DNA of 64,000 nt from positions 124,001 to 188,000 of the forward strand of contig JADGJC010000043.1 of assembly GCA_027596075.1 (NCBI GenBank), written 5' to 3'. This DNA comes from Rhizophlyctis rosea (lineage: Eukaryota > Chytridiomycota > Chytridiomycetes > Rhizophlyctidales > Rhizophlyctidaceae). Position 1 is the first letter of the stretch. Every line of letters starts with the position of its first letter. A program made the position numbers and the translations under genes. This document shows, in pieces, positions 13,576 through 38,994 of the stretch. Below the pieces are notes generated by a model. It did no database searches. It was given only the letters and a program-made list of their open reading frames with translations, and had not been told where the DNA came from.

Positions 13576-15092
13576 GGTTGATAACTTGGACTGTTTTTTT
13601 GGAGGATGAGGTTACAAGTTATGAGACTGGGCTGTAGACTGTTGGTAGGTGAACAAGAAGGAAGAGCGACACTTAAGACGCGTTTCTCTTATATGTAATC
13701 TCACTATCAATAGTAGATGAGGAATGAGGCGGCAAGTAGATTTCGAGTCTTCTTCGCCTTCCCCACTATGACGACCCCTCATGAATGTGGCTCCATCTTC
13801 GTTCCCCATCTTCGGCTCCGGTGTGTTCCAAAGTTGGCGCAAAATGTGCAAATTCTTCAATTCCGTGCGCAGTCTGGCCAATCGACATTTCAGTAAGCCC
13901 GGTTCTGATGAAATGGCGTCCACCAGATTCGGGTGTTCTGGCAAGACATGAGGGGCTGGAGGGGCCGGAGCCTGGAGGGAGGAGCTCGCCGAGATATGTG
14001 GCTTGCAAATCGAGAATTGTGGCGCATCAAGTTTTGGCCCGACGCCAAGCCACCCGCAGTCTTTCAAGTGGGATGTTCTTTTCGTTCTGTCCCTTCCATA
14101 GACACTGGTTTATCAGGGACCCTAGCAGAAAGTTTTGCTTTGATCGATGACAGTTACTAGAATTGTTGGTCAGATCGAGGCAATTCTTCTCACCTTTCCA
14201 GGTATGCCATCAAAACTGAAATTACATTCACGAAAATTGGCTAGGATGCAGATCCGTCAACCTGTAGAGGTCTGCCGAGCTTGTGTAATCAAAGGGTGCA
14301 CACTGGCTTATGCACCACTCAGACAATCTAGACTGTGGCAGAGGCACTGACATCAAGCGGTTCGTGTCCTATATGCCATATGGGCTGCCTTGATGGTGGA
14401 GGACATCTGTACGATTACGGCGACTTCAATGCTTAGGCGCAACAGACATAAAATGCAGTAGCAAGTGCTGCTGTTTGCGATTGATACAAAAGCTGTGGAA
14501 GGACTTCTTGCGCTATTGCACCAATGCAAACACCAGCTGCATAGAAAGCCATATTGATTCATCCTCAACTCATTGCGATATGATGCGCGGCATGTATTGC
14601 ACTATTCTTGATGGAAAGTGGTGTGAGCCTTGATTGAGGGGTCCCAAATGCCTAAAATGCGGATTTGAGAATATCTTGTTATTGGTGCATGAAGCCTGCA
14701 GAAAGACACGTATGCTGCGCCTCACCTAACAGGGGTGCATGTTCAGACCCTCGGACTCATTTTGACGTCAAGTGGCGCAGGGTATTTCCCGTTGATTTGT
14801 GTGACGATGGCATTGATCGAGTGGGCAGAAATGCGCAGATGAAACACACACTCGCAGCACTTTCCCACACTAAACCCTCCTGTCAACCCAATTTGTTTTC
14901 CCACACTGCAAATTTCAACGAGCAGTCTAAGCCGTTCGGCAAGGAGCTGACACAGGGAAGCGAGAGATATTGTCCTCAAGTATGTCATGAGTATGGAAGT
15001 CACTTGTTTCATAGCGCTCAAGCTTATGCAACCATTCAGAGCACAAACCACAACAATCGTGACTCTCAGTCACGGATTTGCCGGGCTGGTGC
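13576..15092. other. Intergenic region (GPI-protein and Clr2-like promoters)
   Basis: About 1.5 kb with several open frames on both strands (13612-14067 minus, 13785-14150 plus, 14665-15092 plus). None shows a recognisable domain, splice pattern or sustained protein-like composition. It lies between two divergent starts, so it contains both promoters. A small lineage-specific gene cannot be excluded. Confidence 0.4.
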
Positions 15093-17996
15093 ATGTCAGA
15101 CTTTGAGGACTTTTTCTCTGCGGCAACCCCGTCGTCAAACTCTGCTGCTGAGGCGGGAGAGCAGGCTTCGCTGAGCGATGGTGGCCTGAACTCGACAATG
15201 GCACAAACTTGGCGCGACGAAGGGTCGCGGGTCCAGCTGTCCTCCTGGTCACCAGAGCGCATTGCAACGGAGGAGCCCAATGACTATTGGCTTTCGGACC
15301 TGTCCTTGAGCCTGTCAGTCACAAAGGACGGAGAGGAGCAGGACACTGGAGTTCCCATGACGCTGGATACTGCTTCGAGCACTGAACCTCTACCCATATT
15401 TGCCCCGCTCAGCATTCCCACTCCCTCCAGAGCTTTTGCCTCACCGTTCCTTGAAACCAAACCCACTGAAGACACTCAAGAAAAGTTTGAAGACCTGTTC
15501 CCGTTCGGAAAGCCAACGTCTGAACCAAATGAGGATGAAGAGAGCCAGTATGCATCCAGCGACGAAGAAATTGTGCAAGCAGTCATCAAAACGGAGGATC
15601 CAGTCTGGTATCAGGAGTTGAAGCAGCGGAAACGCCGGCGGCAGAAAAGGAGAGTGATATTCGATGTCCTTCCTTCACGACATGGTTATGCGTCTGTTTC
15701 ATCTTCCCGCTCACCCACACCTCGACCGATGGGAACTCCCAAGTTCTCGGATGGGGACCCAGCACAGCACCCAATACCCACGCCTACCCTTCTGCCGGAT
15801 AGTCAGACAGGTGATTCAAGAGAAGCGGCCGTCTGGTTACCAAAGCTGGGGCTTCAACACTTTCCGTATGGGTACAAATTGTACGCGCAGACCCGGGGGG
15901 TTTCGTCAGATGGGAGACAGGATCGGTACCTGTTTGGTCACCCCAGGTTCGTTTCGACTATCACCATGAGTACTTGGGTCCGCATATTTTAACATTTTCG
16001 CCATGCACATAGTGGGAGCCGTTTTCGATCTCCAGCAGAATTCATACCCCATCTGGAATGGCTGGTGGACGGTAACCCGCACATGCCGTGCAAATGCTTG
16101 TATTGTACGAAGAGAGGCTACTCGGGTCCAAAAAACATCAAGTGGTCAGATGAAGCACCGGCAGAGACAAGTCAGGTGGAAACAGAACATCTTGAGGCAA
16201 TGGAGGAGGAGATGTCATCATCCGATCATGAAAGCGAGGATGGGTATGGTGGAGGTGATCCTATGGAATATTCGCCACACACAACACCGCCGCCATCAAC
16301 GACCGACACCAGCACCATCGCATCGTCGTCTCCCAATGATGCGTTCATCACACCGGGCATCGTTAATGTATCCCATCATCCCATTGTGGAAACTGCTGGG
16401 GTTGGTATTGGGCCATTCGAACGCGTCGGACTGCCATTCAGCGCCAACAGCGACCAATCGCACCCATTCAAAACCGACACCGCAGGCTCAATCCTTCTTT
16501 CCAACGGGTCACACGATGCCAGTCCAATCAAAATCAATGTCACCTCTCCCTTATCCCCTTCCCCGAAGACCCACGACGAATTTGAGGACACCAAACCACT
16601 TTCCCAATCATCAGCACACAACGGTTCCACTGTCGCCAAAAAGGACGAGCACTGGTTGACGCCGCGCCGTCGAAGCGCTTCCTTGACCGAGATGGAGTCC
16701 ACCGACGCCGTCCTAGCGCCATTCTTCATACCCCCACTGGCCGTCTTCCGTCCGCCGCCAGGCTACAGCACAGAATCAAGCCCATCCTCCGAAAGCAACT
16801 CCCCGATCCAACCGCCGCCCTCGTCCGACCGTCTCGTGGAAGGCGAAAGCTCCCCAATCACCGGTTCAGGCTCAGCCAAACGCAAATTCCTATTCCCAGA
16901 AACGGAAAACAAGATCCCGCGCGTGTCGAGCAGTCACAGGACCCCGCATCCCATTCCGGAGAGCAAGCAAGCCAAGCTGAGGAGAGCGAATGCGGATCGG
17001 TCCAGACCTGGGGAGATTGTTTGGTGCACCGCTGGCGCGTCTGTGTTGGGGATCAGGGAGGAACGGACGTTTGCTCGGTGGCCTGCGTTGGTTGTCTCTG
17101 ATGCGTGGTGTAAGCATTACGTTCCGGGGTGGTCAGCGCCCGTGGAGGATGAGGCGGTGGAGTCGTCGTCGATGGGTGCGCCGAAGCATTATACGTTGAT
17201 TCCGTTGCCGGTGCATCCGAAGAAGGGTGGGGAGGATGGGACGCCGGGGTTTAGACCGATACAGATCCCGGGTGATCACGTGTTGCCATTTTTGGTGACG
17301 ACGTTGCCGGCGGAGCAGCCTAGTGTTGTGTTCAATTGTGCGGTTGTGCAGGCTATTGGGGTTGCGGGGAGTTATGAAGTTCTGGAGGGTGAGGGGAGGG
17401 TGAAGATGGAGCGGAGGGAGGAGGGAGATATGCAGAATGGGAAGGGAGAATTGGGAGGGGGAGGGATGATCTTTGGTGCGGATGGAGCGGATAAGAGCCC
17501 GTCACCGTCGGCAGGAGGTCCCATCATGACGTTGCGAGTCGGAGTGGAGATCATCCAGATTGGCGACCGGATCCGATGTATGCGACGCATTCCTATTACG
17601 GATCAGTCGAGAGGACGATACGAGTTGCGGAGGAGCGGGGTGGAGAAGTTCATGGAGGTTACGAAGATTGAGCGGGACGATAAAGGCGTGATTTACTTGT
17701 TTGGGTATACTGTTAGTGATATTGCGGGACCTGTTGTTAGTGGGGGGGGTGCGGGCGCGGGTGGGAGTGTGAGAGGGGCACGAGGAGGAGGAGAAGGACG
17801 ACCGGCTTTGAAGAGGGTGCATGTGGAGGATGTGGTGGGGAGGATGTACTCTAGGGCGGCGTTGGAGGAGGGTGTGGTGGTGTTTGGAGAGTCTGAGAGG
17901 GTTTGGGAGGAGATGGGTGTGCCGGAGGGTGGGAGGAGGAAAGAACCGAGGGATATTGCCAAGTGTAGGAGACGACGGAAGCCTAATGTCGTTTGA
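15093..17996 (+). CDS. Clr2-like transcriptional-silencing protein
   Basis: A 945-residue protein in two exons (15093-15946, 16013-17996; donor GTTCGT, acceptor CATAG), total 946 codons. Spanning the intron is the N-terminal Clr2 domain: WLPKLGLQHFPYGYKLYAQT, then DRYLFGHPSGSRFRSPAEF, IPHLEWLVDG and CKCLYC. A low-complexity Ser/Pro linker follows. The C-terminal Clr2 domain has GEIVWCTAGASVLGIREERT, FARWPALVVSDAW, MTLRVGVEIIQIGDRIRC and the closing KGVIYLFGYTVSD. In fission yeast Clr2 is a subunit of SHREC, the Snf2/HDAC complex that silences heterochromatin. The start at MSDFEDFFSAA was chosen over the upstream extension, which has no ATG. It faces the LSH-type remodeller tail-to-tail with about 295 bp between stops. 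Assigned from the two conserved blocks; the middle is not alignable by eye. Confidence 0.85.
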
Positions 17997-36141: not shown

Positions 36142-36375
36142 TGGCCAGTGTTTGGCATAAAAATTTCTACGTAACTACTTTTTCCTTCCACATAGGTTGT
36201 GCTTAGTGCAAATAGTGATAGTGATATTGCAATAAATGTAATGTATATTCGGGTATTTTTGATGCGTTTTCTGTGTTGGGGTTGTGTGATATTGTGCACT
36301 ACTTCAATTCGCTCGCAGCAGGCAGCATTTGAAGCCGCCTATTGATGCGTTTGTTTACATTCGGTGTGGCGTTTT

Positions 36376-36430
36376 GACGCGTTGCCGCAGCGCCCACGCG
36401 GTTGGGCCCACGCGGTTGGGCCTATATAAA
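36376..36430 (+). promoter_or_regulatory. Promoter of the PBZ-ligase gene: ACGCG cluster and TATA box
   Basis: An exact ACGCGT (36377-36382) is followed by two perfect tandem copies of CCCACGCGGTTGGG (36393-36406 and 36407-36420), each with an ACGCG core, then TATATAAA at 36423-36430, about 60 bp before the ATG. ACGCGT is the MluI cell-cycle box bound by MBF in yeasts and drives S-phase genes including the replicative ligase CDC9. Its use here is inference. Confidence 0.6.
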
Positions 36431-36490
36431 GGAACACTCTTCTGTGCATTCCTCTTTCCAAGCACTCTCCTCTCTGCGTACACCTCAACC

Positions 36491-38994
36491 ATGCCCACCA
36501 AACCCAAATGCACCTTCTGGAACAAGTGCTTTCGCAAAAACCCACAACACCTGGCGGAGTATCTCCATCCTGCCGATGTGGATGCACCCTCATCAGACAC
36601 TGATGCGGACGCGAAAGAACAGTGCCCACACGGAGACAAGTGTCGCCTCAAGAGTCGTCAGCACCTGGCCAAATATTCTCACTCTACAGACGACGCCTCA
36701 CCAGCCAAACCCAAAACCCCCACCTTTGATGCAGAAAAAACCATAATCGATTCTGATAGAGACGCGTCGGACGATGAACCTGTAGCCCCCAAATCGAAAG
36801 CTCCACCTCAGAAGAAAAAGAAACCGGCCCCTAAGCGAGAACCTTCTGAGGATGAGGATGAGGATGAAGATGAGGATGAGGAGGACGATTATCAGGCTCC
36901 CAAAAAGGCAGCTGCTGCACCATCCAAAACGGCAACTTCATCCCAAGATGACAGACCCAAATGCCAATTTTGGGATCGTTGCGGGATGAAGAACGCTGGA
37001 CACCTAGCCAAATTCCTCCACCCCGCAGACCTGACCTCCAACAATGGGGTCACTTCCGACAGCGATGCAGAAAAGTCAGACAGCGACCAATCACCTTCTC
37101 CTCCACCCTCCCCTCCCAAAAAGCCAAAACGGAAACTACCTTTCACGACAGATGCAGCAGGGCCATCAAGCTCCAGCAATGGCACCTCCAAGGGCAAGAA
37201 GAAGGCAAAGATCATCCCGAAAGAGGAAGAGGAGGAAGAAGAAGGGGACCATGCTACTATATCGGTTGGGGACACCAAGGTAGTGCTGCCCAAGAAGGCA
37301 ATTGAGGACGTAGTACTTGCCGGTGTTTGTAAGTGCGGGAAGAAAAATGATGAGGATGCGAACTTTTGCAATAAGTGTGGGAGTAGGCTAGTTGCGGCTA
37401 TCAAGGCGGCTGTCGGGGATGTGGAAGATGATGAAGAAGAAGTGAAGGAGGAAGAGGATTCCAAGGAGGAGGACGAACTAGCTTCTATCAATGGGATCAC
37501 ACCGAAAAATGTGCTGAATGATGGGGATGTCATTGAGGTGAGCTAAAACAACCAAGTGGTATTCACCGTAGGCCGGTCACTGACAGTGTCGCGCAGATCG
37601 AAAGTTCTTCATCGTCCGCCAAGTATAGAATCAAACGTACTTGGGATCATTATTATTGCACATGTATGGCGTGGAGGAACCAGGGAGGAATGCCTGTAAA
37701 TGGTTTGTCTCAAAGTGACTATTGATTCTCTATATTGCCCTCGGCTGATTCATTTACTCTCATCCTGCAGCACGAACATGCAAACACCTCAAAGAACACC
37801 TCGGAGAAGCCTACGAAATGGCCCGCCTGAAAATGAAGAACCCGGATGGTCAATTACCAATCGCATCTTCGAGCACTAAGGCCAGTAAGAAAAGGAAAGC
37901 TGCTGCAGCAGATGATGATGAGGAGGATGAAGATGATGACGATAACCCCGCACCAGCAAAGAAAGTGAAGAACACTGGTCCACCAGCTCTTTTGCTGGCC
38001 AACAAGTATGAGGATAAAGTTGATCCGACGGGATGGTGGATATCGGAGAAACTGGATGGTGTGAGGGCGCTTTGGGACCCGGCGAGGAAGACATTTGTGT
38101 CAAGGTTGGGAAATCCGTTTACGGCACCTGCTTGGTTTGTACAAGGTAGGGACTACCATATGATTACTTATGATGGCCCCTGAAGCTGACTGACGTCCAT
38201 TTAGACCTGCCCAAGGATATGTCCCTAGACGGTGAACTCTTCGCCGGCCGCGGCGAATTCGCCTCCACAGTCTCAGTAGTCAAAACCATCAACTCCCCCC
38301 ACTGGCACAAAATCAAATTCCACATCTTCGATGCTCCATCCATCGGTCACCTCCCCTTCGAATCCCGTCTGGACAAAATCAAAAAATGGGCGACCACATT
38401 CCCCACATCTTCCCCACCCTCCTCCTCATCTTCCAAAGGCAAATCCAAGGCTACCGACCCACCATCGAAAGCCACAACAGCAGAACATATTACACTTGTC
38501 GATCACGAGAAATGCAAGAATCGTAAACATGTTACGGAGATGTTGGGGGAGGTGGAGAAGAAGGGTGGGGAAGGACTTATGTTAAGGAAGCCCGGGAGTT
38601 TGTATGAAGGGAAGCGGAGCGGGACGTTGTTAAAGGTCAAGAGCTTTTATGATGCTGAGGCGGTTGTTATTGGACATGAGCCGGGGAAGGGGAAACATAC
38701 TGGTGCTTGTGGAGCATTGAAGGTACGCAATATTTGTGTTGGTGCCTCCATTATCACTTGCTTGAAATTCATCATCAACATGTTTTTCCCAAACAGTGCA
38801 AAATGGAATCCGGCAAGCTCTTCAACGTTGGAACTGGCATGTCGGATGCAGAACGTCGCAACCCTCCACCGAAGGGAGCAATCATTACTTACCGATTCCA
38901 AGAATTGACTAATGATGGGGTGCCAAGGTTTCCAAGTTACATTGGCGTGCGGGTGGACGCGACGGGGCCCAAGGATTACGTATTCAAAAAATGA
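36491..38994 (+). CDS. PBZ-SWIM-ATP-dependent DNA ligase fusion
   Basis: A 747-residue protein from five exons (36491-37537, 37597-37702, 37771-38145, 38205-38722, 38797-38994), exactly 748 codons. Three perfect PBZ fingers (C-x5-C-x6-H-x5-H) have ligands at C7/C13/H20/H26, C45/C51/H58/H64 and C158/C164/H171/H177; PBZ fingers bind poly(ADP-ribose) in APLF and CHFR. A zinc ribbon follows (C280, C282, C293, C296), then a SWIM finger (C370, C372, C388, H390) and a compact ligase: SEKLDGVRALWD with nucleotidyl-acceptor K478, SLDGELFAGRGEF, FHIFDAPS, EGLMLRKPGSLYEGKRSG, LLKVKSF, and an OB fold ending GPKDYVFKK. Acidic and Lys-rich linkers join the modules. The catalytic part resembles bacterial LigE-type ligases more than eukaryotic Lig1, 3 or 4. 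It probably seals nicks at PARylated damage sites; the domain order is seen, the role is inferred. Confidence 0.9.

Follow-up and report, generated by a model that had tools for sequence, protein, structure and literature searches.

DNA ligases of the LigE type, defined by a PF01068 adenylation domain and a PF14743 OB domain (PMC10665377), are found fused to PBZ zinc fingers in bdelloid rotifers, Mortierella, Thecamonas and some animals (PMC6264785, PMC10665377). In proteins named LigK, extra domains such as PBZ generally lie N-terminal of the core, with C-terminal positions in Mortierella and Adineta (PMC6264785). For LigE, PBZ is described as C-terminal in rotifers; among other eukaryotes, Thecamonas and Mortierella are named as exceptional in having it there too (PMC10665377). 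The PBZ-LigE genes are reported to be horizontally acquired and, in Adineta and Mortierella, radiation-induced; ligase activity has been reported, and A. vaga LigE is active (PMC10665377). PBZ itself is stated to be restricted to eukaryotes (PMC4030884).

The window examined here (the whole stretch of DNA that was analysed, 64 kb of Rhizophlyctis rosea) encodes a predicted protein that resembles these enzymes in part. Bdelloid AvLigE-A and AvLigE-B likewise have a eukaryotic PF01068 and PF14743 core with PBZ, for which a bacterial origin has been proposed, and AvLigE-B responds to radiation or desiccation with strong induction; their one or two PBZ, however, are C-terminal of the core, within PST repeats (PMC6264785, PMC10665377). 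In the window protein three PBZ fingers stand at the N-terminus, separated from the core by a zinc ribbon and a SWIM-like finger. Mortierella verticillata LigE is also a fungal PBZ-LigE, single copy and X-ray-induced, but its PBZ is at the C-terminus whereas that of the window protein is N-terminal (PMC10665377, PMC6264785). The N-terminal position is shared with the LigE of three other animal species (PMC10665377), which differ in being animal proteins whereas the window gene is fungal. Human APLF has a tandem PBZ that aligns with the first two window fingers (E=5e-9), but APLF is not a ligase and acts in NHEJ and BER (PMC6264785). The first-pass annotation of the locus had not recognised its exact architecture among described proteins. 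PBZ-LigE itself is not new, since PBZ-LigE/LigK fusions were published in 2018 and 2023 (PMC6264785, PMC10665377). What can be kept of that claim is that the main texts of both papers lack the word SWIM, although a finger may be drawn without a name in their figures or supplements. The new element is the layout, in which a bacterial SWIM-LigE module is preceded by a zinc ribbon and, at the N-terminus, by three PBZ-type fingers; this layout was not found in the literature searched.

The gene has five predicted exons at 36491-38994 of the window, on the forward strand like all its features given below, and a product of 747 amino acids. Exon 1 (36491-37537) carries the three PBZ fingers, acidic and basic linkers, the zinc ribbon and LNDGDVIE, the start of the SWIM-LigE module, in an uninterrupted frame with homology to bacterial N-termini. 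Intron 1 (37538-37596, GTGAGC..GCAG) falls within the bacterial-homologous module. Exon 2 (37597-37702) encodes the first half of the SWIM-like finger and is followed by intron 2 (37703-37770, GTTTGT..GCAG). Exon 3 (37771-38145) encodes the end of that finger, a linker and ligase motif I (EKLDG). After intron 3 (38146-38204, GTAGGG..TTAG), exon 4 (38205-38722) supplies the remaining adenylation domain with motifs III-V and the start of the OB domain. Intron 4 (38723-38796, GTACGC..ACAG) precedes exon 5 (38797-38994), which holds the end of the OB domain and the stop codon. The joined exons make 2244 nt, or 748 codons with the stop, and 4/4 introns are GT..AG, reproducing the coordinates of the single four-intron gene proposed in the first-pass annotation. 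An alternative donor for intron 2, GTAAAT at 37696, was rejected by eye as it loses the frame with the 37770 acceptor, and the original join was retained. A TATA-like element, TATATAAA (36423-36430), lies 60 bp upstream of the ATG. It is the sole TATAWAAA of the 64-kb window, against 1.65 expected by chance, and its position is its only support. A promoter scan of 36300-37800 gave nothing beyond bacterial-type patterns. The gene preceding the ligase gene encodes a GH18 (chitinase-type) domain. Elsewhere in the window, at 15063-17993, a Clr2 transcription-silencing domain, which is fungal, extends over two adjacent frames that are perhaps a single gene with an intron. The GH18 and Clr2 domains fit a fungal genome.

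Both domains by which LigE is defined are present in the window protein. The DNA_ligase_A_M adenylation domain (PF01068; residues 466-655, 38013-38641, interrupted by intron 3) scores 39.7 bits against a cut-off of 26.2, and the DNA_ligase_OB_2 domain (PF14743; residues 669-734, 38681-38952, interrupted by intron 4) scores 100.9 bits against 28. The NCBIfam equivalog NF006592 (PRK09125, 'DNA ligase'), which we take to be the LigE model, gives 293.1 bits against a cut-off of 200. The top PDB relatives, 4d05, 8u6x and 6gdr, are LigE-type enzymes. In the four-row alignment with these three solved structures, the stretches that we assign to motifs I, III, IIIa, IV and V are invariant, as is K478 (codon 38049-38051), the predicted adenylated lysine. 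The intact ATP-dependent LigE-like core and the catalytic K478 of the first-pass annotation are thus upheld. Two DNA-contact motifs of LigE have been described as G-K-G-K-aromatic and F-basic-I-G-S-G-F-x-D (PMC6144786). The window protein has GKGKH and FNVGTGMSD at these positions, so that residues are substituted, and the consensus of SWIM-LigE proteins is similar to the window (GxGRH, FSVGTGxSD).

Two further zinc-binding elements had been proposed between the PBZ fingers and the core. The zinc ribbon, CxC-x10-CxxC at residues 280-296 (37328-37378), is present and matches PF13240 marginally, at 25.2 bits against a cut-off of 25. The putative SWIM finger, CTCMAWRNQGGMPVNARTCKH, at residues 370-390 (37657-37787, interrupted by intron 2), fits C-x-C-x15-C-x-H and carries the signature of the finger fused to LigE in bacteria, with 21 residues against 20 and M in place of P. 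The pattern stands as proposed, but the Pfam SWIM profile (PF04434) has no match in the window protein at E<=1, and a genome scan with it at E<=0.1 did not recover the window gene. PF04434 matched 27/41 relatives at E<=10, all weakly, with a best E of 0.019. A fold comparison by structure returned no SWIM match and was uninformative. Because the pattern fits, the profile misses the protein and the structural comparison does not inform, we call the finger SWIM-like.

When bacterial and archaeal genomes were scanned with the window ligase, at least 562 relatives emerged, of which the best 80 (loci L032-L111) were kept. C-x-C-P-A-W-x9-R-[TS]-C-K-H lies upstream of LigE in 80/80 of these best bacterial loci. 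The search pattern required only C, W, C and H, and not the shared P, R and K; the ranking favours finger-bearing proteins, since the query contained the finger. By record title, the best 80 of at least 562 comprise 34 Planctomycetota, 30 Myxococcota and 16 from other phyla or unplaced. A second test, made for this reason, covered 77 genomes of one phylum, that to which a Myxococcus genome belongs. A match was found in 23/77, 11 of them strong (>540 bits) and 12 weak and partial only. All 11 strong matches start at model position 1-2 and include the finger, one of these genomes being the source of L034 in the model, as others may be too. Bacterial proteins thus share with the window protein both the CxCxAW..R[TS]CKH signature and the ligase core, with a highest core identity of 56% over 264 columns (L034, among the best 80 of at least 562). 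As judged from sequence, the SWIM-like finger with LigE is a bacterial module and not a fungal novelty. For one relative, L032, the predicted structure (pLDDT 90.6) matches DNA-bound LigE 6gdr with a target TM of 0.89.

The bacterial proteins differ from the window protein at both ends. PBZ-like patterns were found in 0/160 ligase frames (0/80 of the best 80 of at least 562 bacterial relatives, and the best 80 of 195 viral ones), whereas the window protein has three PBZ fingers. WGR is the break-sensing domain of PARP1/2. A C-terminal WGR follows the OB domain in some bacterial proteins, unlike the window protein, in which the Pfam scan found none. Pfam detected it in 2/4 bacterial proteins picked for scanning (L036 and L039, not L050 and L032), and a WGR-core pattern follows the OB domain in 43/80 stop-to-stop frames of the best 80 of at least 562 (for example L058). 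Repair genes do not recur widely in the flanks (up to 3 kb) of the 80 bacterial SWIM-LigE loci, as seen by eye in the 14 largest clusters; the largest cluster (17 loci) looks by eye like overlapping antisense frames. RuvA- and RuvC-like frames were seen by eye beside SWIM-LigE in L069, L082 and L083, planctomycete loci that look related. L067 comes from a MAG record with the title Klebsiella pneumoniae, probably a mislabelled bin; its SWIM-LigE falls within the bacterial SWIM-LigE cluster.

Viral contigs yielded 195 relatives, and 14/80 of the best 80 carry the SWIM-like finger (L112-L118, L120-L122, L124-L126 and L186). These contigs span 20-527 kb, and our guess is that they are large phages. 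A giant-virus source of SWIM-LigE was considered and set aside: an NCLDV capsid search was empty in 14/14 finger-bearing viral records, weak evidence as the control was also silent. A PBZ search of the same 14 records was likewise empty; its control was silent there, though the same model matches in the window's genome. A quick tree was built from 80 rows, namely the window protein, 61/94 SWIM proteins (thinned at 72% identity), 15/66 viral proteins without SWIM and three PDB LigE. The window protein takes a near-basal position in the SWIM-LigE cluster, some finger-less viral rows are interspersed with finger-bearing ones, and the PDB rows, two of them long branches, fall outside the cluster only under midpoint rooting (support 78). 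The 80-row tree names no donor phylum for the window SWIM-LigE.

At the N-terminus, C-x5-C-x6-H-x5-H is exact in 3/3 PBZ fingers, and Pfam PBZ matches the protein in three stretches (E=1.1e-23). Scored singly, the fingers reach 48.6, 27.6 and 33.1 bits; because each exceeds the 22.7-bit cut-off, they are not chance matches. In APLF the PAR (poly(ADP-ribose)) contacts are Y381/Y386, Y423/Y428 and R387/R429 (PMC6264785), and the finger pair binds PAR >1000-fold tighter than one finger (PMC4030884). Finger 1, CTFWNKCFRKNPQHLAEYLH (residues 7-26, 36509-36568), has F, F and R where the APLF pocket has aromatic, aromatic and Arg. Finger 2 (residues 45-64, 36623-36682) retains its zinc ligands but has H, R and L at the PAR-contact positions, none conserved. 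Finger 3 (residues 158-177, 36962-37021) also retains its zinc ligands and has F, G and M, with 1/3 contacts kept. The APLF-type residues (Tyr, Tyr, Arg or conservative equivalents) are thus kept in 1/3 fingers. The claim of three exact PBZ fingers therefore holds for the zinc ligands, but fingers 2 and 3 lack most PAR-contact residues. Finger 1 looks capable of APLF-type PAR binding and fingers 2 and 3 do not. Since these two have lost most contacts and APLF needs both of its fingers for tight binding, the PAR affinity or avidity of the window protein may be modest or low.

The genome-wide PBZ search gave six rows, three of them the window gene. On contig C45 (78251-80353, reverse strand), a PARP_reg/PARP gene is followed on the same strand, after about 0.8 kb, by a PBZ match; a PARP-PBZ protein or a neighbouring gene is possible. 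An ankyrin-repeat frame on C222 (locus L002:601-3075, reverse strand) carries the canonical PBZ finger CQYGQKCYRKNPAHFKEFAH. An acidic, lysine-rich frame on C206 (locus L001:667-2019, reverse strand) has the single canonical finger CKYGKACYRKNPDHFAEFAH and, besides PBZ, no Pfam match at E<=0.01.

In the reading we prefer, with a probability of about 0.6, the product is a LigE-type DNA ligase with an accessory role in the nucleus, which PBZ finger 1 brings to PARylated breaks and which seals nicks. The catalytic half would consist of the SWIM-like finger and the adenylation and OB domains, a module also fused in bacteria. The N-terminal part, with three PBZ-type fingers, linkers bearing basic NLS-like runs and the zinc ribbon, would be a eukaryote-side addition. 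PARP would make poly(ADP-ribose) at a DNA break, and finger 1, perhaps aided by fingers 2 and 3, would tether the enzyme at that site. Further DNA or protein contacts may come from the SWIM-like finger and the ribbon. K478 would accept AMP from ATP, and the adenylation/OB clamp would close the nick. The sequence itself provides one frame joining the two halves, full ligase motifs, the PBZ zinc ligands, the pocket residues of finger 1, and PARPs and PARG in the genome. We infer PAR binding, nuclear location, recruitment and activity of the window protein. The preferred reading is also supported by analogy: PBZ-LigE is switched on by radiation in Adineta and Mortierella, and the A. vaga enzyme is active (PMC10665377). 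Against it stand the loss of most PAR-contact residues from fingers 2 and 3, the substituted LigE motifs, the failure of PF04434 to match and the fold comparison that returned no SWIM match.

The same finger residues bear on the best surviving alternative, that the array no longer reads PAR and has become a zinc-stabilised region for protein, RNA or DNA contacts in a general accessory ligase without PAR signalling. The H/R/L and F/G/M of fingers 2 and 3 speak for it when set against the Y/Y/R of APLF and of two other strong PBZ frames in the same genome. However, finger 1 retains F/F/R and scores more than twice the cut-off, and genes for PARP and PARG are present in the genome; on balance we consider loss of PAR reading rather unlikely. 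PARP catalytic profile matches number 27 rows, 25 above the cut-off and several per gene, PARP_reg gives 10 rows on six contigs, and PARG gives five rows, with one strong gene on C68 and weaker pieces on C83 and C18.

The first-pass annotation went further and proposed a self-contained repair ligase substituting for XRCC1/Lig3 or APLF/Lig4, which the ligase complement of this 44.1-Mb genome (634 contigs) makes improbable. PF01068 matches occur in 11 rows on six contigs, that of the window gene included. Of the other five contigs, three were compared with PDB and two typed (C296 and C43, not C87); C477 and C299 were inspected by eye. The C296 ligase is Lig4-like (top PDB match DNA ligase 4, 212 bits) and the C43 ligase is Lig1-like. 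The stretch at C299:13463-14103 (forward strand) resembles the C43 gene, has several stops and looks like a decayed copy. A second LigE core was not found in the genome. Lig3 was the best PDB match for 0/3 ligase frames compared and an XRCC1_N profile search of the genome gave no match, both of which would suit a replacement, though the control of the XRCC1_N search was likewise silent. Because Lig4-like and Lig1-like ligases are also present, the window ligase is, by these profile and PDB comparisons, an additional one in a genome with a PAR system, and is not shown to be a replacement. The replacement role is therefore not supported, but the remainder of that proposal, a single polypeptide with PAR-type fingers and a complete LigE in a genome with PARPs of the DNA-damage type and PARG, survives.

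The consensus start of the bacterial relatives, M-x-D-L-x-D-G-E-x-x-E-V, aligns with LNDGDVIE, so the catalytic module already starts at the end of exon 1. Since exon 1, a single frame, holds both the PBZ array and these first SWIM-LigE residues, the two are truly fused at the sequence level. The joins of introns 1 and 2 fall inside the stretch matched in bacteria, where the match mostly starts at query residue 4; with the spliced query, tblastn matches run from residue ~4 to ~400 in most of the kept loci (best 80 of at least 562). The joins of introns 3 and 4 fall inside the alignment with the three solved LigE enzymes. A gene-model artefact, in which a PBZ gene was wrongly joined to an adjacent, separate ligase gene, is accordingly rejected as very improbable: the splice joins are predictions from sequence and the number of TATA-like elements does not exceed chance expectation, but the exon 1 frame is unbroken from the PBZ array through LNDGDVIE, and introns 1 and 2 interrupt a module whose spliced product matches bacteria across both.

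The bacterial SWIM-LigE(-WGR) family was not found in the open-access literature searched. Tentatively, LigE may have become linked to the PARP damage system repeatedly and through different domains. The bacterial form (Myxococcota, Planctomycetota) would be a SWIM-LigE, often with WGR, and the fungus would have acquired the SWIM-LigE module and swapped break sensing for a PBZ array and ribbon, giving a PAR-guided enzyme by a route separate from the rotifer and Mortierella PBZ-LigE; we regard this scenario as possible but doubtful.

If the preferred reading of a PAR-recruited accessory ligase is true, recruitment and sealing would reside in one chain, and PAR-guided ligation would be open to study in a single protein with simple mutants of finger 1 and K478. 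The bacterial SWIM-LigE(-WGR) proteins offer a PBZ-free comparison for the role of the extra fingers. They also suggest where the eukaryotic PBZ-LigE linked to radiation and desiccation may have obtained its catalytic half.
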